DNA from: an uncultured Oscillospiraceae bacterium
Lineage (GTDB): Bacteria > Bacillota > Clostridia > Oscillospirales > Oscillospiraceae
Reading direction: 5' to 3'
DNA length: 64,000 nucleotides
Assembly: GCA_947629795.1 (NCBI GenBank)
Contig: CANRFC010000001.1
Span: 1 to 64,000 of the forward strand
The notes under the pieces: generated by a model
What the model was told of the DNA's origin: nothing
Database searches by the model: none
What the model saw: only the letters and a program-made list of their open reading frames with translations
Shown here: positions 2,468 through 30,795 of the stretch, piece after piece
How positions within the stretch are numbered: position 1 is the stretch's first letter
Layout of the letters: every line of letters starts with the position of its first letter
Translations under genes and position numbers: made by a program

Positions 2468-5400
2468 TCATTTTTTCAGCAAATAGGGCACAAAGCGCTG
2501 GAACATCACAGCCACCTCGGCTCTGGTAGCGCCTGCGGACGGATCCAGCACCTTCCCCGGTCTGCCGGTGACGATACCGCTCTCCACTGCCCAGGCCAGG
2601 GCCTGATCTGCCCAGGAGGAGACCTTGTCCCCATCGGCATAATCGGTGAGCCCGCCCTTCACCTCGGGGCAGCCGGCGTAGCGCCACAGCAGGGTGGCAA
2701 GCTGCTCCCGGCTCACCGCCCCCTCCGGGTCGCTGCCGTCGGTGAGACCGCTCTCCACGCCCCAGGCCAGGGCCGGACCGTACCACTTCTCCCCCACCCC
2801 GGGGGTCGGATCGCTGCCGTCCAGCCGCGCCAGTACGGTGAAAACCATGGCCCTGCTGGTACCCATATCCGGGGAGAAGGCTCCGCCGCCGGTGCCCTGG
2901 AAGAGCCCATGGCTGGAGACGAACCCGGCGGCTCCCGTCGCCCAGTGGCTCCCCATGTCGGCATACTCCACCGGATTGTCCACGATCTCATACTTTCCCT
3001 CGGCGGGAGCCACGAAGAGGACCTGATCGGCCTCCACCAGGCTGACGGGCACGATGTGCCGCTCCCCCTTGGCGTCCACATAGGCCACCACCTCGCCGGC
3101 CTTGCCGGTGGCCTTCCCGGCGTCGGGGATCATGGCCGCCACATCGGCGTCCTTGGACAGGGTCCCCGAGGGGATGATCACCGTGACCTTCTCGGTCTTC
3201 ACGGTCACCGGCGCCTCCTCGTTGGCCTTCACCACCGCCTGGGCCTGGGCCTTGGAGACGGTCTCCTCCCCCTCGGGCAGTTCCAGCAGGGCCGAGCCGT
3301 CGGGATTCGTGGTCACGGCAGGCGCCGGGGTGGGCGTGGGGGTGGGCTCGGCCACGAAGCCGCCACCGCCGCCTCCGCCGCCTCCGCCGCCTCCGCCGCC
3401 TCCGCCACCGCCGGAAGTCCCGCCGCCACTGGGATCGGCGGGGGTGGGAGTGGGCGTGGGAGTGGGCTCGGGCTTGCCCGAGACCGTGACGGTATAAGTC
3501 ACGGGCCGGGCCCCCTCCGGGGCGTCGTTATCGCTGGAAAAGTGCAGGAAAAATGCCTGTTCTCCGTTATTCAGAGTACTTAAATAGGTCCCTTTGAACA
3601 CCACGGCATTGAGCCGCAGCGGGTCGTCCACAGGGGGATCTTCCAGATTTTGGGCCGTCTCATCGGCCCCATTTTGGGTCTCTTCAGCCCTGTTTTTGGT
3701 CTCATCGGCCCCATTTTTGACCTCTGCACTGGTCTCATTTGACCCATCCCGGGCCACATCCTTTTGGGTCGTCTCATCGGCCTTGGTTTCGGCTTCGTCA
3801 TCCACCTCCTGGGCCTGGATGACGGTGTAATCGGTGTCCTTTGTCAGGGTCTCCTCACCCAGGGTCACCGAATCCAGGGTGGCGCCGTAGGTGGTCATGC
3901 CCACTGTGAGGTCGGGGGCGGGGCTGGCGGCGGCGTCAAAGGTCCCAGAGGTGCTCTCCAGCACCGGGGCGCTGTATGGCAGGGCACCCACGGTGAGGGT
4001 GAGCTCCACCGGCGCGCTGACGATGGGACCGTCGGCGGCGGTGACCTGCACGTGATAGGTCTTCCCGGCGTCGGCGGCGGCGGGGGTGTAGGTCAGCGCG
4101 GAGCCTGCCAGCTCCAGGCCCACGGGCAGCGTGCCCTCCGGGTCAATGGGGGCGATGGCGTAAGTCAACTCGGGAGCGGTCTCACCGGAGGTCTCCTCGG
4201 CCAGGGCGGTGGCCGAACCCTCTCCGCCGGACTCCCCGCCCTCGCCGGAGCCTGTCCCCGGCTGGGTCTCAGTCGCCCCGGTGGTGAACCAGGTTGCCAC
4301 ATCGGCCGTATATGCCGTTGCCTCCGTCTTTCCGTCCAGGGAGCCGGGGGTGGCCTCGCCGGTCTGGGCCTCCACCGCCGGGATCGCCTTCACATGGCTG
4401 GCGTCCACGGTGACGGTGTAGGTCTCCACAATGCTGGGGTCCTGTGCGGTGATTTTTATGGTCCAGACCTTATTTCCTGTCGTTATGTCCATGGTCGATT
4501 TTTCCACACTGCGCGTAACCTGTACCCCGCAATTGGAAAAATCGGTCCCCTTGGGCACGTAGATGGTGATGGCGTTGCCCTTCGTGGTCTGGGGAGCGTC
4601 CTTATATTCTGTGGTCGTGTTGGTGGCATCGTCGTGGCTCCAGAAATAGACTTCCTTCAAAGTCGCATCGGTGTTGAGCCACTTGGCGTAATACTCCTTA
4701 TTAGCCCTGGTCTTACCCTCCAGCTCGGTGACCCCGGTGCCGGAGAGGTCCTCCTTCTCATACCACCCGGCGAAGCTGTACCCCTCCTTGGTGGGCACGG
4801 GCAGGGCGATGGTCCCGTCGTAGCTGTGGTAGGTGGCGGTCACCGGGGTCTCGGCAGGGGTCTCTCCCCCGGCGGGGGTATCCCCCTCCGCCGCCGGGGC
4901 GGCCTGGGTGGGCATGGTCCCGCCGTTGAGGTGGTAGGTGATGGTGTAGTTCTGGATCTCGGCCATCATCGCCGGGGCGTTGATGATGCCCCAGCCGTAA
5001 TCGTAGTCATACCCCGCCTCTCCCGCGTCCTTGGCGGTGAAGGCCAGCAGGTCCTGGAAACCCTGGGGGGTAAGGTCCACCTTTTCCTTCCTGGCCTTCT
5101 CCAATGCCAGGGCCGCCAGGCCGGAGACACAGGGTGCGGCAAAGGAGGTCCCGCTGCCCGAGGTGTACCCGTTGGGATTGGTATAGCTCAGGCTCCAGAT
5201 GCCGCTGCCGGGGGCGGCCACCCAGACGCTGTCGTTGCTCTGGGAGTAGCTCGCCTTGGCGCCGGCGCTGTCGATGGCGCCCACACCCACCACCTGGTCA
5301 TAGGCGGCGGGGTAGTAGAGGGCGGTGCCGTACCCGTTGCCCACGGCGGAGACCACGATGATCCCCGCGTCCACCGCCGCCTGGGTGGCGGTGTTCATGG

Positions 5401-24604: not shown

Positions 24605-24721
24605 GCGACGGGGGATGCGGAAAAAACATGTGGAAAAAACGGGGTCTGTTTTGCTGTTATTGGTATAGCAAAGCCGGCTCCGGAGAGAAACCCGGCGCCA
24701 AATGTGGAGAGGGCTGCTCAG
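24605..24721. other. short spacer with no supported gene
   Basis: Nothing convincing is visible here. The end of the segment (TGGAGAGGGCTGCTCAG) supplies a ribosome-binding-like GGAGAGGG for the micro-ORF that follows. The integrase that precedes the sister cassette at 27.6 kb is missing in this copy. Confidence 0.5.
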
Positions 24722-24784
24722 ATGGATAAGTTTGGTATAAATCTCGCCGCCTCAGTCCACATTATCCAGCAAGGAGGCGGTTAA
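24722..24784 (+). CDS. 20-residue micro-ORF, copy A
   Basis: A 20-codon ORF beginning MDKFGINLAASV and ending IIQQGGG lies directly before the 77-aa ORF. Its last codons (CAA GGA GGC GGT) form the ribosome binding site of the next ORF, and its TAA ends one base before that ORF's GTG. The sister copy at 27626-27688 encodes the same peptide with only A9 changed to S, while other differences are silent. It may be a coupling leader or a true microprotein. Its own initiation site GGAGAGGG is plausible. Confidence 0.45.
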   Translation: MDKFGINLAASVHIIQQGGG

Positions 24785-24785
24785 T

Positions 24786-25019
24786 GTGGAAATTAAAACG
24801 GAGCCTGGCGGCAAAACAGTGGAAATATGGCTGACCCAGGCGGAAAGTCAGGACACCGCCATCCAATCGCAGCTAAAACCGCTCTACCAAAAGTGCAAAG
24901 CGCAGGGTTACACAGTGGTCGTATTCTGCTCCGGCAGCGAGGACTTGGTCGACACCACCAGTACTCTGCTCTGCTCCAACCGAAATCGGATGGCCCAGGC
25001 CGAAAACAGTCTCGCATAG
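24786..25019 (+). CDS. small element-associated hypothetical protein, copy A
   Basis: This 77-residue protein starts at GTG (MEIKTEPGGKTVEIWLTQ) with AGGAGG eight bases upstream. The ATG two bases earlier opens only a short unrelated frame. It is a close paralogue of the 70-residue protein at 27690, sharing KTVEIWLTQ, QDTAIQ, LKPLY and KAQGYTV with a divergent, longer C-terminus (NRMAQAENSLA). The roughly 240-base DNA segment is about 80% identical between copies. I do not recognise a characterised family. In the sister copy it follows an integrase, so it belongs to an integrative element's accessory genes. A strong hairpin terminator follows. Confidence 0.7.
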   Translation: MEIKTEPGGKTVEIWLTQAESQDTAIQSQLKPLYQKCKAQGYTVVVFCSGSEDLVDTTSTLLCSNRNRMAQAENSLA

Positions 25020-25023
25020 GACA

Positions 25024-25076
25024 GCAAAAGGCCGGGTGCCAACGGCGTATCTCGCCGTCGGCACCCGGCCTTTTGC
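25024..25076. terminator. bidirectional terminator between convergent genes
   Basis: GCAAAAGGCCGGGTGCC pairs with 25060-25076, with a nested ACGGCG/CGCCGT stem. It gives TTTTGC on both strands. It serves the small ORF on the plus strand and the ATPase gene (stop at 25086) on the minus strand. Confidence 0.9.
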
Positions 25077-25085
25077 GAAATGTGG

Positions 25086-26408
25086 TCATCGCTGGAGGAA
25101 CATCACATAGTAGATAGGCAAGTAGACGATCTTGCCCTTTGTGGTGATCTCCCGCTCGTTGGAGAGCACAAGGGCCTTTTTGACATGATAGTCCTCGTTG
25201 GCGACGAAGGCATTCAGCGCACTGTGGACGGTGTAATCCTTGCCCGACTTCACCTCGATGGGCACGGCGCTGAGGCTGTCGTAGTCGTCAATGAGGTAGT
25301 CCACCTCGCCCTTGGTGCGGTTGTCGTAGTAAAACAGCTTGTGACCGTGGGCGATCAGCTCACTGGCCACCACGGTCTCATAGACCGAACCCAGGTTGAC
25401 ACTCCGCTCGTCACCCAGAATGGCGCGGATGTTGCTGCCGTACAGGATGCCCGTCAGGATGCCCACATCGTTCAAGTAGAGCTTCAGGAGGTTTTTGCCC
25501 GACGACTCTACCAGCGGAAACACCGGCGTGGAGATAGCCTGGACATTCAGGGCAATGCCGGCGCTGATAAGATATTCAAACTCGTCGTGGTAGTCGCCGA
25601 ACGTTTTCCCCTTTTTGTTTTCGATGCGCTGGGCCACCACTCGCTTTTTCTTGTTCTCCATGTTGGAAGGGATCATGTCGTAAATGCGCCGAATTTGCAG
25701 CTTTTTCTCGGCATCGTACTTGGAGGCGTCGGCGCCGTAATACTCGTGAATTTCCCGCTGGATGTCCCGGACGGTCTGGATGTTCTTTGTCTCCAAATAG
25801 GTGTTGACCGCGTCGGGCAGACCGCCCACCAGCAGGTATTTGCGAAACAGATCCATCATCTTGTTGTGGGTGGGTTCGTCCAGAGCTTGCAATTGCTGAA
25901 ACTTCCCGCGGATAGCCGAAACCGCCGTCGCATTCATGCCGTTGGCGTACAAAAACTCCTCAAAGTCCAGCGGAAACATCTGCACCCGGCGGATGCTGCC
26001 CATTGGGATGGAGGTGGTTTGCGCCAGAGTGACCCCCAGCAGGGAACCGCTGGCCACATAGGTGAATTTTCCATCCTGGGAGAGGAATTTCAGCAACGTC
26101 AACAGATGGGGATATGCCTGGATTTCGTCCAGAAAAATCAAAGTGTTGGACTTCTCCTTCATCTGGTTGCCCGCAAGCATACTGACCCGAAGATAAAAGT
26201 CTTCTACCGTCCGTGTCTCTGCAAACAAGCGGGGGCCTATGGAGTCCTCCACCATGTTGAGCTCAATAAAGTTTGGAAACAGCCTTTTCCCCACATAGCG
26301 GACAATATAGGTCTTGCCGATCTGACGGGCGCCATCGATCAAAAGGATCTTGTCCGAGCCTGATTTCAGGTGGTCTTCCAGGGCTGCCGCAATTTTTCGA
26401 TAGAGCAT
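25086..26408 (-). CDS. AAA-type ATPase with DUF4143 C-terminal domain
   Basis: A 440-residue protein with an N-terminal AAA_14-type ATPase domain: Walker A GARQIGKT at 26-33 and Walker B LIFLDEIQ at 90-97. The sensor region (YVASGSLLG, PLDFEEFL) is followed by a DUF4143 domain ending in a PD-(D/E)XK-like fold region (GEVDYLID, PIEVKSGKDY). The family is abundant in gut Bacillota and Bacteroidota; its role is not established, though nuclease-associated or defence roles have been proposed. The start at 26408 has GGAGGTG upstream; the ATG six codons earlier has none. Upstream lies an exact 33-base-period repeat array whose nearest unit ends 15 bases from the start. Confidence 0.92.
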   Translation of the reverse strand: MLYRKIAAALEDHLKSGSDKILLIDGARQIGKTYIVRYVGKRLFPNFIELNMVEDSIGPRLFAETRTVEDFYLRVSMLAGNQMKEKSNTLIFLDEIQAYPHLLTLLKFLSQDGKFTYVASGSLLGVTLAQTTSIPMGSIRRVQMFPLDFEEFLYANGMNATAVSAIRGKFQQLQALDEPTHNKMMDLFRKYLLVGGLPDAVNTYLETKNIQTVRDIQREIHEYYGADASKYDAEKKLQIRRIYDMIPSNMENKKKRVVAQRIENKKGKTFGDYHDEFEYLISAGIALNVQAISTPVFPLVESSGKNLLKLYLNDVGILTGILYGSNIRAILGDERSVNLGSVYETVVASELIAHGHKLFYYDNRTKGEVDYLIDDYDSLSAVPIEVKSGKDYTVHSALNAFVANEDYHVKKALVLSNEREITTKGKIVYLPIYYVMFLQR

Positions 26409-26422
26409 GAACGCACCTCCAA

Positions 26423-26533
26423 CCAACTTTTCAAAAAAATTATGCTACGCCAAATCAAACTTTTCAAAGAAATAGTACCACATCAAAGCCAACTTTTCAA
26501 TAGAAAATCGTCGATGCTTTTCCAACTTTTCAA
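26423..26533. repeat. four-unit array of CAACTTTTCAA at 33-base spacing
   Basis: The decamer AACTTTTCAA starts at 26425, 26458, 26491 and 26524, exactly 33 bases apart each time; the 23-base intervals between copies are unrelated to one another. In the minus (gene) direction each unit reads TTGAAAAGTT. If translated in frame with the ATPase they give FEKL/IEKL/FEKF/FEKL every 11 residues, but a TAG at 26445-26447 separates the last unit from the rest. Repeats are too short for a CRISPR. It occupies the leader of the DUF4143 ATPase gene. Confidence 0.85.
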
Positions 26534-26627
26534 AATCCCGATGGCTGGCGGAACATTTTTCCGACGTCTGCCATTCAAAATATTCAATGTGGAACGGTTG
26601 CGTCTTTACTTTTCCTTTGACACTCCC
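26534..26627. other. spacer between repeat array and IS605 end
   Basis: No gene is supported. On the minus strand a 61-codon frame (26445-26630) covers this spacer and three repeat units, with no ribosome binding site seen. It begins next to the IS605 end, so it is treated as non-coding. Confidence 0.4.
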
Positions 26628-27180
26628 CACGGCTAAAGCCGGGGGATTCTCGGCTCAACCACCACCGCCTGCACCAGCGAGGTCTTACAAGGTGTCCCCG
26701 AGCGTATGGGTTCGGGCGTGTCCTGCCCTACCATATAGACAGACTATGCCAGCAGATGCAGCCCTTCGTTCAGAATGTTCTTCGCGGCGTTGATATCCCT
26801 GTCGTGGACGACCCCGCAGCTTGGGCAGGTCCACTCCCGGACGGAGAGGTCTTTGGTTCCGGGCCACTGAGTGCCGCAAGCAGAGCAAAGCTGACTGGAC
26901 GGGAAAAAGCGGTCAACGGTGACCACCTGTTTCCCATACCAGGATGCCTTGTATTCCAGCTGCCGCCGGAACTCGCCCCAGCTTGCATCAGAGACAGACC
27001 TTGCCAGCCTGCGGTTCTCCACCATTCTCTTGGGGGCCAAGTCCTCAATACAGATGATATCGTTCTCTCTCACCAACTTTGTGGACAGCTTATGCAGCAT
27101 GTCATTCCGCTGGTTGGCGATGTGCTCGTGGAGCATTGCCACCTGCACCCGTGCTTTCTCCCTGCGTTTGCTCCCCTCTT
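26628..27180 (-). mobile_element. partial IS200/IS605-family element (right end plus tnpB 3' part)
   Basis: The right end is marked by TTGACACTCCCCACGGCT with a CGGCTAAAGCCG hairpin at about 26625-26650, downstream of the tnpB fragment. The left part of the element, including any tnpA, is missing; the sequence switches to an integrase coding region at about 27172-27180. The 3' part of tnpB with the right end is the region from which TnpB guide (omega) RNAs normally derive. Confidence 0.75.
26744..27180 (-). pseudogene. tnpB: TnpB (IS605 OrfB) C-terminal fragment
   Basis: About 145 residues of the C-terminal half of the RNA-guided nuclease TnpB remain. Visible are [19 protein letters not shown], the RuvC-II glutamate in DIICIEDL, the zinc ribbon CSAC...CPSC and the RuvC-III aspartate in [11 protein letters not shown]. 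The N-terminal part with the wedge domain and first RuvC aspartate is absent, so it cannot cut DNA. The frame continues upstream into unrelated integrase sequence. TnpB normally supports retention of the transposon by cutting empty donor sites. Confidence 0.85.
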
Positions 27181-27633
27181 CGCATCCACGAGTGCTTCCG
27201 CATTGATACCGTCACCGCAGGAAAGGTGGTAAAAGAAAACGCCCTCACCATCAAGGGCAAGGGCGGGCTGGTGCGGACGGTGCCGCTGAACGATCTGCTG
27301 GTGAAACGGCTCCAGCTTCATTTGGAGACGACGCCACGTGGTCACAAACTGTTTGTGTCTGATGATGAACAAACTCATGAGGCTATCAAGCGGTTCCAGG
27401 CGTTCATCTACCTCCAGCGCCAAACTGTGCAAGACCCGGACTCCTCCCGCCCTATGACCTTCCACGGCCTGCGGCACACGAAAGCCGCGGAGTGGTATCA
27501 GGAATTTATACAGGAGGGCAAAAGCCCCTATGAGGCCCGGAAGGCCGTCTCCAAACTTTTGGGGCATGGCAGAGACGATGTAACCCGTATCTATCTGGCG
27601 TCCATCAAAAAAGAGGGTGGCACAGATGGATAA
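27172..27633 (+). pseudogene. tyrosine recombinase/integrase, N-terminally truncated
   Basis: The catalytic domain of an integrase survives from just before the first catalytic arginine ([10 protein letters not shown]). It continues through ENALTIKGKGGLVRTVPL, the HGLRH box, LLGHGRDDV and the tyrosine in RIYLAS. The core-binding and arm-binding domains are lost at the junction with the tnpB fragment on the opposite strand. All visible catalytic residues are present, but without the N-terminal half and start site it should be inactive. Its stop codon (GAT GGA TAA) overlaps the ATG of the downstream micro-ORF (ATG GAT AAG), as expected for an operon. Confidence 0.88.
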
Positions 27634-27688
27634 GTTTGGTATAAATCTCTCCGCATCAGTCCACATTATCCAGCAGGGAGGCGGTTAA
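27626..27688 (+). CDS. 20-residue micro-ORF, copy B
   Basis: It starts MDKFGINLSASV and ends IIQQGGG. Its ATG overlaps the integrase stop codon, GAGGGTGG lies upstream, and its final glycine codons make up the ribosome binding site for the 70-aa ORF that begins two bases later. The peptide is conserved against copy A at 24722 in spite of silent DNA changes. Confidence 0.45.
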   Translation: MDKFGINLSASVHIIQQGGG

Positions 27689-27689
27689 T

Positions 27690-27902
27690 GTGGAGATCAA
27701 AAGGGAGCCTGCCAGCAAAACAGTGGAAATATGGCTCACTCAAGTGGAAGGCCAGGATACTGCCATCCAGGCACGACTGAAACCTCTCTACAAAAAGTAC
27801 AAGGCCCAGGGTTACACGGTGGCTATCTTTTATTCCGGTACACAGGATCTGGCCACCGCCACCAGTGACCTGCTCTGTTATAACCGCAAGCATTTGGCGT
27901 AG
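27690..27902 (+). CDS. small element-associated hypothetical protein, copy B
   Basis: A 70-residue protein starting at GTG (MEIKREPASKTVEIWLTQ) with GGGAGG upstream. It is the paralogue of the 77-aa protein at 24786. The pattern KTVEIWLT..E.QD..I...LKPLY.KYKAQGYTVAIF.SG suggests a compact alpha/beta fold, but no known family is claimed. It follows the integrase and micro-ORF in a coupled arrangement and is closed by its own terminator. It is probably a conserved accessory gene of an integrative element. Confidence 0.75.
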   Translation: MEIKREPASKTVEIWLTQVEGQDTAIQARLKPLYKKYKAQGYTVAIFYSGTQDLATATSDLLCYNRKHLA

Positions 27903-27909
27903 CATTTGT

Positions 27910-27944
27910 GGAGCCGCAGGGTAGCCTGCGGCTCCATTTTGTTG
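27910..27944 (+). terminator. terminator after the 70-aa ORF
   Basis: GGAGCCGCAGG, loop GTAG, and CCTGCGGCTCC (27925-27935) are followed by ATTTTGTTGTT. Confidence 0.88.
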
Positions 27945-27973
27945 TTGTCATACCATCAAATCTATGATACAAT
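27945..27973 (+). promoter_or_regulatory. promoter of the RhuM-family gene
   Basis: TTGTCA at 27945-27950, a 17-base spacer and TACAAT at 27968-27973 form a strong sigma-A promoter about 36 bases before the ATG. It overlaps the tail of the preceding terminator. Confidence 0.75.
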
Positions 27974-28008
27974 ATTATCTAAAGAAATGAAACCGGGGGT
28001 GCATATAA

Positions 28009-29034
28009 ATGGATAACAAGCCCGTGAAATCCGGTGAGGTGTTGCTTTACAGTGACGGCAGCGGCAAGGAATTTGTCAGTGTGGTTTTTCAAGATGAGAA
28101 TTTCTGGCTGACCCAAAGCGGTATGGCCCAACTTTTTGACTGTACCCCGGAGAATGTACTCCAACACTTGAAGAATATCTACGCCGAGGAAGAACTGGAG
28201 CAGGGGGCAACTACTAAGAAATTCTTAGTAGTTCGCCAAGAGGGCACACGGCAGGTCCAGCGTAACCTGGATCACTATAATCTGGACGCCATCATCGCCG
28301 TGGGATATCGTGTTAACTCCAAAAAGGCCACCCGATTCCGCCAGTGGGCCACCAAGACGCTGAAAGAGTACATCCAAAAGGGCTTCGTCCTCAACGACGA
28401 ACTGATGAAGAACGGCAGGCCCTTTGGAAAGGACTACTTTGACGAGCTCCTGGAGCGCATTCGGGAGATCCGAGCCAGCGAGCGCCGCGCCTACCAAAAA
28501 ATTGCCGACATTTTTGAGCAGTGCAGCTACGACTACGACAAGAGCAGCGAGACAACCAAAGCCTTCTACGCTTTCGTCCAGAACAAACTCCACTACGCCG
28601 TCACCGGCAAGACGGCGGCGGAACTGATCGCCGAGCGGGCTACCCTGGACAGCCCCACCATGGGGCTCACTACCTGGAAGGCCGCCCCGGACGGGAAAAT
28701 CCTGAAAAGCGACGCCCTCATCGCCAAAAACTACCTGAACGAGAAGGAGATTTCCCGCCTCAATCGCCTGGTCACCATGTTCATCGACTACGCCGAGTTG
28801 ATGGCAGAGGATCAGCAGCTTATGAGCATGAAGGATTGGCTGGACGAGGCGGACCGCTTCCTCACAAACAACCGCCGGAAGGTGCTGGAGGGCAAGGGTA
28901 CCGTCTCCCATGATGAAGCGGTGCGGAAAGTCACTGCTGTCTACGAGGAGTTCCGTAAAAAGCAGGATGCCGACTACATCTCCGAGTTTGACCGCCAAAC
29001 TGCGAAATACCTGAAGGGTGAAACCGATGATTGA
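28009..29034 (+). CDS. RhuM-family protein
   Basis: The 341-residue protein matches the virulence RhuM family. The N-terminal winged-helix/antirepressor-like part reads FWLTQSGMAQLFDCTPENVLQHLKNIY. The family block LDHYNLDAIIAVGYRVNSKKATRFRQWATKTLKEYI follows, then a helical region and a Fic/DOC-associated C-terminal part (NKLHYAVTGKTAAELI, YLNEKEISRLNRLVTMFIDYAELMA). It has a strong promoter and GGGGGTG site. Its end overlaps the recombinase start by eight bases (ATG at 29027, TGA at 29032-29034), so the two form an operon. Despite the name, the role is unknown; RhuM genes are common on mobile elements and in defence-related clusters. The frame is intact. Confidence 0.92.
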   Translation: MDNKPVKSGEVLLYSDGSGKEFVSVVFQDENFWLTQSGMAQLFDCTPENVLQHLKNIYAEEELEQGATTKKFLVVRQEGTRQVQRNLDHYNLDAIIAVGYRVNSKKATRFRQWATKTLKEYIQKGFVLNDELMKNGRPFGKDYFDELLERIREIRASERRAYQKIADIFEQCSYDYDKSSETTKAFYAFVQNKLHYAVTGKTAAELIAERATLDSPTMGLTTWKAAPDGKILKSDALIAKNYLNEKEISRLNRLVTMFIDYAELMAEDQQLMSMKDWLDEADRFLTNNRRKVLEGKGTVSHDEAVRKVTAVYEEFRKKQDADYISEFDRQTAKYLKGETDD

Positions 29035-30795
29035 AAGATTTGACCTGGCCGGCTACTGCCGCATTTCAGTGGACGAAGAGCTGGGCCGGGACAACACCTC
29101 CATTGAAAACCAGAAGGTCATCATTGAGGACTTCGTGAAGCACAAATTCCCCGGCTCCACCCTGACTTTCTATGAGGACCGGGATAAGTCGGGCTACACC
29201 TTCGACCAGCGGCCCGGCTATCAGGTCATGCGGCAGGAGTTGATGGGCCACAAAAAGGACATCCTCATTGTCAAGGACTTCTCTCGGTTCTCCCGGCGCA
29301 ACAGCCGGGGGCTGGTGGAACTGGAGGACCTGCGGGACGCCGGTGTCCGCATTATCTCCATCGGAGACAACATCGACTTTCCAAACGATGACGACTGGCT
29401 GAAAATCCAGTTCCAATTTCTAATTAACGAGATGCCCGTCACCGACGCCAGCAAGAAGGTCAAATCGGTCATCCAGCGCCGTCAGGCCGACGGCAAGTGG
29501 ATCTGCGCCGCCCCCTACGGCTACATCGTCAACAAACACCAGGAGTTCGAGATCGTCCCCACCGAGGCCGAGATCGTCCGGGAGATCTTCCGGCTCTACA
29601 TCGACGGCTGGGGCTATAAGAAAATCGCCAACTACCTCACCGGCCGGGGTATCCCCACCCCCCGCACGGCCGAACAGCAGCGCCGGGAGGCGGAGGGCCA
29701 GGAGGTCAAGCGGCAGGCCAAGCTGACCTGGGCCATCGTAACGGTGCAGGGCATCCTGGACAACGACTTCTACATTGGCACTCTCCGCCAGGGGAAGTAC
29801 ACCTGCAGGAAGATCAACGGCAAGGACGTGAAGCGGGACGAGTTAGACCACATCGCCATCGAGCATCACCATCAGGCCATCATCGACTACCGCACCTTCG
29901 CCACCGTCCGGGCCCTGCGGGAGACCCGCTCTACCGCCCACTACCGGGGCCAAAAGAAGTATGACAATGTCTATTCTGGATTTCTTTTCTGCGGGGACTG
30001 CGGCTCCCCCATGTTCGCCATGAGCCGCCAGGAAATTAAGGACGCATACCGCTGCGGGGAGTACCACCGCCGGGGCCTGAAGGGCTGCACCAGCCACCAC
30101 ATCCGGGTGGACAAGAGCTGGACGAGCTGCTGAAAATCTATGTCCGCAAGGTGAAGGACAACTCCGCCGCCATGCTGGATCGTCTCAACGCCGACCTTGC
30201 CAAGGAACAGGAGGATGTGGCAGAGACCGAGCAGGCTGCCGTCCATTTGGAGGAAGTTCTGGCCGACCTGCAGGAGGAGTTGAAAGCCACCAAACGCCAA
30301 CACATCCGGGACATTATGAAGCACCCGGAGCAGGAGGAGACTCTGGAGGAAACCTACAACGAACTGGAATCCGACCTTCTCCACCGCATGGAGGGTATCC
30401 AGAACCAGATCGCCATGACCCAGGACAAGCGCAACACCATCATTCGGGTGAACCGGGCGGCCAAGACGGCCTTGGATGTCTTTGACGACATTCTGAACAA
30501 GCCCAAGCTGGACCGGAACGACCTCCAACTCATCATCGAGAAGATCAGGGTCTACGAGGACCACATAGAAGTCCAGCTCAAGGCCGACATCGACAGCATT
30601 CTCCGCTGCGGGGAACTGCCGGAGGAATTCACTGAGGAACAGCCCAAGGCAGTGGCAGCTATGGCCCCTGTCAGCCTGGACAGGCCGGAAAAGGCCAAGC
30701 CCTATGAAATACAGATCATCCAGGAGAGCGACAAGCACCGGGGCAAGGTTTTCACTGTCAAGGTTATCAGTAACGGCGAGCCTTGCCGAAATTGA
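29027..30795 (+). pseudogene. large serine recombinase, single frameshift
   Basis: The gene encodes a TndX/TnpX-like recombinase: resolvase domain with catalytic serine (GYCRISVDEE) and DFSRFSRRNSR; recombinase domain (APYGYIVNK, YKKIANYLTGRGIPTP); zinc ribbon (CGDCGSPMF); and a coiled-coil/DUF4368-type C-terminus. The frame breaks at 30113-30117, where AAGAG appears to carry a duplicated AG: the first frame ends WTSC at 30133, while LDELLKIYVRKVKDNS continues two bases out of frame to the TGA at 30793-30795. Restoring the frame would give about 588 residues. Either a recent inactivating indel or an assembly error would explain it. Confidence 0.88.

Follow-up and report, generated by a model that had tools for sequence, protein, structure and literature searches.

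What is an array of four identical decamers, spaced at exact 33-base steps, doing in front of an ATPase gene, and which protein would read it? The array lies in a window of 64,000 nucleotides (the whole stretch of DNA that was analysed), and the original prediction offered three readings of it: a cooperative operator, a structured leader, or the relic of a repeat peptide once fused to the ATPase. We compared the array with those of its relatives in other genomes, and the most likely answer is a DNA site whose geometry varies little and whose word differs between relatives, bound by the ATPase that it precedes, itself a member of an abundant candidate defence family.

The array in the window

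The decamer AACTTTTCAA (forward strand) is found exactly at positions 26425-26434, 26458-26467, 26491-26500 and 26524-26533, and each of the three steps measures 33 bases, just as had been reported. The ATPase gene is on the minus strand, and the word therefore reads TTGAAAAGTT in the direction of the gene. Counted in that direction, word 1 (26524-26533, an exact match) is the farthest from the gene and is followed by word 2 (26491-26500), the penultimate word 3 (26458-26467) and word 4 (26425-26434), which ends 16 nt before the ATG, and not 15 as first counted; a Shine-Dalgarno sequence, GGAGGT, can be read directly at 26415-26420 on the same strand.

Beyond these four, no further exact copy of AACTTTTCAA is present in the whole window. 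Allowing at most one mismatch there are five matches, against 1.31 expected from shuffles, so that four exact decamers in register are far beyond chance; the genome from which the window comes has 11 exact decamers, namely the four of the array and seven scattered singles. The spacers had been called unrelated, and they are indeed mostly divergent, but a G or T follows each decamer and hexamers resembling a -10 element recur inside the units. The equation of the period with three helical turns holds only approximately: with 10.5 bp to the turn, 33 bp makes about 3.14 turns, and a spacing of 32 comes next in frequency. Chance or a recent tandem duplication might be suspected from the output of Tandem Repeats Finder, which calls part of the array as a 33-bp repeat at 78%; this explanation is already refuted by spacers that diverge while the words stay and by the recurrence of the period in dozens of independent clusters (see below), and its probability is practically nil. 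A CRISPR array, which would have repeats of at least about 23 bp and cas genes in its vicinity, was considered and rejected, the words being only 10 bp long and the scanned neighbouring genes including no cas gene.

The surroundings are those of a mobile element. Directly upstream of the array (window 26610-27148) is a TnpB fragment (26744-27148, minus strand) with an IS605-like end (CCCCACGGCTAAAGCCGGGGGATTC), and a partial tyrosine integrase, a RhuM-family protein and a serine recombinase are encoded at 27079-30133. Two near-copies of a short sequence (24690-25030 and 27600-27905) flank the ATPase region; they encode MDKFGINL..ASVHIIQQGG / MEIK.EP..KTVEIWLTQ and resemble a duplicated element end. 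An inverted repeat (25024-25076) follows the ATPase gene closely on its 3' side; it has sub-threshold matches to miRNA models and is probably the terminator of that gene.

The ATPase encoded behind the array

The gene (25086-26408, minus strand, with its ATG at 26408-26406) encodes an AAA_14-DUF4143 ATPase of 440 amino acids, recognised by its domains and by a full-length match (E 3e-179, PADLOC) to the model of the candidate defence gene PDC-S01, a model that is also matched by all 93 of its aligned relatives. The AlphaFold2 model (mean pLDDT 90.7, pTM 0.90) was built from an alignment of 83 homologues, with proteins from plasmid records left out. Taking domain limits from our own reading of its secondary structure, it comprises an AAA+ domain (residues 1-148; 25965-26408) with Walker A residues G31 and K32 and Walker B residues D94 and E95, a helical lid, a predicted winged helix-turn-helix (about residues 233-312; 25473-25712) that is the candidate DNA-reading domain, and a PD-(D/E)XK nuclease fold (residues 340-440; 25089-25391). 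The Walker residues, E368 and K387 are invariant among the aligned homologues, D370 and E385 are conserved in at least 90% of them, and all are present in the window protein. A sequence search of the PDB with this protein gave no match. The solved structures placed nearest to the model by Foldseek were the archaeal Walker ATPase 2qen and then ORC/Cdc6, MuB and TnsC; these neighbours include origin-bound Cdc6/Orc1 and DNA-bound filaments of MuB and TnsC.

Conservation of the array with the ATPase gene

One genome per species, for 84,980 species, was scanned for two such decamers 33 bp apart. Among the 88 stretches recovered, 35 are situated directly before an orthologue of the ATPase on the same strand (34 identified by tblastn, plus L082, which is at a contig end with the first codons readable). 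More than one 33-bp pair was present in 25 of the 88 stretches, and 17 of these 25 precede the ATPase; the other eight are gene-deletion remnants (L052, L061), a leader minus its gene (L097), low-complexity or whole-unit repeats (L043, L065, L088) and true orphans (L036, L049). The single pairs found elsewhere look mostly like chance occurrences. In the main clade, to which the window belongs, 35 distinct upstream regions provide 74 spacings, 68 of them of 33 bp, three of 32, two of 34 and one of 30, with three copies of the word in 24 of the regions and four copies in eight. A lack of conservation at related loci had been named as a refuting outcome; both the period and the word do recur there, and the selection on position that was proposed for this one locus turns out to be larger than stated, being a property of the ATPase family.

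Arrays with at least three copies of the word were also seen apart from an intact gene (L036, L049, L061, L052, L097). The orphans L036 and L049 are in genomes without a detectable cognate ATPase; in L061 and L052 the array is joined to remnants of the ATPase, in what look like deletions, and L097 retains the Shine-Dalgarno sequence and ATG of a gene that has been lost. Two arrays follow in succession in L045. In the archaeal-labelled contigs L018 and L026, apparently one stretch placed in two bins, a distant DUF4143-like protein is preceded by the same decamer at 33-bp spacing, in reversed orientation. A search for phage-borne decoy arrays gave 21 and 13 viral matches for two words, with a third copy only in L285, a viral contig of 34 kb, where three GTCGAAAAAGTGTAT (one with a mismatch) are spaced at 33 bp at about 3782-3890 on the reverse strand. 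No ATPase was found on this viral record, and much of the unit repeats there, unlike in host arrays; a phage decoy or a phage promoter is possible.

A constant period and a variable word

Relatives at 35-45% identity have arrays made of other words, for example GGAAAAAGTGT, GAAAAAGGTTACA, GAAAAACGGACA, CTAAAATCGGCA, TAAAAACGTGCG and CTATAGAAAAATA, with more besides. The period was examined in a motif-free test, in which the self-identity of the upstream 200 nt was calculated at each lag and averaged over 47 homologues less than 70% identical. The highest value was obtained at lag 33 (0.076 above expectation), followed by lags 66 and 32; the profile of 333 upstream regions of other genes in the same loci was flat, with 0.006 at lag 33, and the peak persisted at 0.068 after the removal of all TTGAAAAGT[TG] clusters. 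When clusters were scored individually, 37 of 67 had a significant array (p<0.01 against 200 dinucleotide shuffles), with spacings of (33,33) in 24, (32,32) in six and (32,33) in four; a shuffling test had been named as a possible refutation, and the shuffles do not yield such arrays. A period centre of 33 was passed by 34 of the 60 homologue clusters (<70% identity), and centres of 21, 26, 40 and 47 by 0-1 of the 60. Thirteen of 250 control upstream regions also pass at 33, some perhaps on account of the loci themselves having been selected for a 33-bp pair.

Many of the words consist of an A-tract followed by a variable half, and most have the same orientation as the gene, orientation being our own call and a weak one for palindromic words. 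The arrays are unevenly distributed over the tree: 28 of the 36 clusters in one part have one, against 6 of the 24 in the other part. About 40% of clusters, mostly of one other clade, have no array by this test, several of these showing two visible copies or a marginal score. The lag-33 signal is absent before other DUF4143 proteins of about 400 amino acids and before DUF234 ATPases (24 and 27 tested), and no array was seen at the other DUF4143 paralogues of the window's own genome.

Upstream of DUF234 ATPases, a different leader array was observed between the -10 and the ATG (L331, L337, L338, L339), in which units such as TAACTTTAAAGTTAG repeat at a 15-bp period. The N-termini of two DUF234 ATPases match PDC-S27, a sister candidate of PDC-S01 that may have an array of its own, made of 15-bp palindromic units; the array habit may accordingly be general in genes for ATPases with a PD-(D/E)XK domain.

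The word tracks the protein

For pairs of less than 70% identity, the similarity of the words rises with the identity of the proteins (Mantel r=0.18, p=0.002), and that of the spacers in the same pairs shows no rise (r=0.003, p=0.47). Word similarity is 0.71 at 55-70% protein identity, where spacer similarity stays at 0.47; at 70-86% identity the values are 0.85 and 0.48. In another phylum, plasmid copies from Segatella and Prevotella, which share 61-63% identity with the window protein, are preceded at 33-bp steps by GAAAAGTGTA and TTGAAAAGTGTA, both related to the window word, and no neighbour gene is common to the annotated plasmid copies, which therefore present no candidate for a separate regulator. 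Two paralogues in one genome, having the same period and different words, were found in G107, G144, G599, G640, G087 and G360, and hence no single host factor can read all of the words. From the tracking of protein by word, the words of paralogues, the related words across phyla and the unshared neighbours, we argue on the basis of sequence comparison that the reader of the word is probably the ATPase itself and not a host factor.

The alternative that some other host protein, be it a nucleoid protein or a dedicated repressor, reads the array has a precedent in RptR, a small separate repressor whose target at a defence island comprises three direct repeats (PMC12255303). It would also be in keeping with our search for co-variation between the word and the winged helix, which found none: the partial correlation was about 0, the nuclease and lid domains scored higher, and no single column rose above the permutation maximum. 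Against it are the different words of paralogues sharing a genome, the related words of related ATPases in different phyla, the lack of conserved neighbour genes, and a genome of origin in which the decamer forms no other array; we regard this alternative as quite improbable.

Placement at predicted promoters

All promoters considered here are predictions made by sigma-70 scoring. The promoter predicted for the main clade takes its -35 from the penultimate word, whose TTGAAA is followed, after a 17-bp spacer, by TATAAT as the -10, and the last word lies over the predicted start point. The corresponding -35 position in the window is 26467-26462, inside word 3; the predicted -10, 17 bp away at 26439-26444 on the minus strand, is CATAAT where orthologues have TATAAT, and word 4 covers the predicted transcription start. 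The TTGAAA of word 2 is a possible -35 too, with TACTAT at 26477-26472 after a 17-bp spacer. A tandem promoter in every unit was considered and rejected, as a good -10 is kept by the penultimate unit only: at least five of six matches to TATAAT are present there in 23 of 31 orthologues, against 7 of 31 one unit upstream.

Outside the main clade the placement varies by cluster. The array is just upstream of the predicted -35 in L118/L119, L124, L125, L219 and L220, the words begin near +1 in L120, L126 and L198, and about 10 of 53 arrays lie entirely upstream of the promoter predicted for them; a word at or beside the predicted core promoter is seen in the main clade and in several others.

These positions bear on the remaining readings from the outset. 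An RNA-level element, whether a structured or a protein-binding leader, or a repeat-peptide relic would be favoured by the transcription of the words expected in some clusters. The predicted fold of the leader, however, is no better than those of its shuffled versions (z=0.27), Rfam gave only sub-threshold chance matches to miRNA models, all outside the array, and the frame encoding FEKL, from which the peptide relic had been proposed, is interrupted by a stop in 28 of the 31 arrays of homologues. The arrays predicted to be outside the transcript, in several subfamilies, further argue against a general RNA mechanism, and explanations of this kind are scarcely credible.

The variation in placement also means that activation is possible in some clusters. 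An operator of the same geometry could serve a bound ATPase that activates or toggles transcription, or the array could be a storage or assembly site of the defence complex. A last word just upstream of the -35, as in L118/L119 and the clusters named with it, occupies the place of an activator, and AAA+ filaments on DNA are among the PDB neighbours of the model; the overlap of the window clade's words with the -35 and the start point is, by contrast, the usual place of a repressor, and the words beginning near +1 in three clusters likewise speak against activation or storage. We consider it unlikely.

A putative operator of the ATPase gene

The cooperative operator is thus the one of the three original readings that finds support: the repeats have a constant spacing at a predicted promoter, and the site evolves with the protein encoded behind it. 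We propose, with a probability of about 0.63, that the array is a putative operator for the ATPase gene, bound cooperatively by the ATPase, which would repress its own gene. Several ATPase protomers would bind in a row, one to each word, with the winged helix as the candidate reader, and contacts between the proteins would set the distance at 33 bp, sometimes at 32; a distance fixed in this manner would entail cooperative filling of the array. In the window clade, the bound protein would cover the -35 hexamer in the penultimate word and the transcription start in the last one, and with its promoter covered the gene would be repressed until the ATPase was titrated, released or changed, for instance during phage infection.

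A farther-reaching reading, which we offer tentatively and think rather unlikely, is that a large share of the PDC-S01 candidates carry private DNA addresses, in which the word diversifies with the protein and the AAA+ oligomer keeps the geometry close to 33 bp. The array would then be more than a feedback operator, being the resting and sensing place of a nuclease assembly that infection releases or re-arms, and several copies, each with an orthogonal word, could work side by side within a cell.

In the literature searched, to the extent of the text available, PDC-S01 is an abundant putative defence gene without target, trigger or regulation. The conserved cis-element supplies a concrete DNA ligand for studies of binding, structure and regulation, the presumably orthogonal pairs of protein and word offer a route to the residues that do the reading, and the array provides a marker both for intact systems and for their relics in genomes.

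Comparison with known systems

S01, an ATPase fused to a PD-(D/E)XK domain, is described in the available part of one survey as ranking fourth in frequency among the defences of prokaryotes, with most PDC candidates awaiting experimental validation (PMC12988326), and in the available part of another as the individual defence locus found most often in rumen genomes (PMC13356809). The searched literature, again as far as its text was available, yielded nothing on how PDC-S01 is regulated, nor on an array or operator upstream of it, and DUF4143 is scarcely mentioned in it. The restriction-modification defence island controlled by RptR also has direct repeats, to which a repressor binds (PMC12255303), but RptR is a protein in its own right, a small dimer that recognises a 6-bp palindrome, whereas the words of the window system are about 10-12 bp long and, in the main clade, non-palindromic, and no separate regulator is visible.

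Cdc6/Orc1 on origin repeats shares with the window ATPase an AAA+ domain plus a winged helix, and the Foldseek neighbour 2qby is Cdc6/Orc1 on origin DNA; the global TM is low (0.26-0.34), the window protein has an added PD-(D/E)XK domain, and its site is a promoter, not an origin. The best solved fold match, 2qen (E 8e-08, TMq 0.45), is the Walker-type ATPase PABY2304 of Pyrococcus abyssi, which is 13% identical to the window protein and for which we know of no DNA site.

Plasmid iterons are direct repeats of fixed spacing upstream of an autoregulating Rep gene, whose promoter they overlap. The window array is alike in having fixed-spacing repeats before the gene of a DNA-binding protein and over its predicted promoter; it differs in its longer period, the lack of a replicon context, and an ATPase-nuclease in place of Rep. 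An iteron- or centromere-like site, on which the ATPase would load for the replication or partition of a mobile element, is suggested by this likeness, by the resemblance of the AAA+ and winged helix to Cdc6/Orc1, and by the copies on plasmids. It is nonetheless highly unlikely: each copy is a lone gene, and the surroundings of the copies have nothing in common; orphan arrays are retained where the genome has no detectable cognate gene; and the array overlies a predicted promoter. Cooperative autorepression by the ATPase, the reading that we prefer, is a known kind of mechanism; what is new, as far as the literature searched shows, is that it occurs in this family, that the 33-bp geometry extends across phyla and that the words are private.
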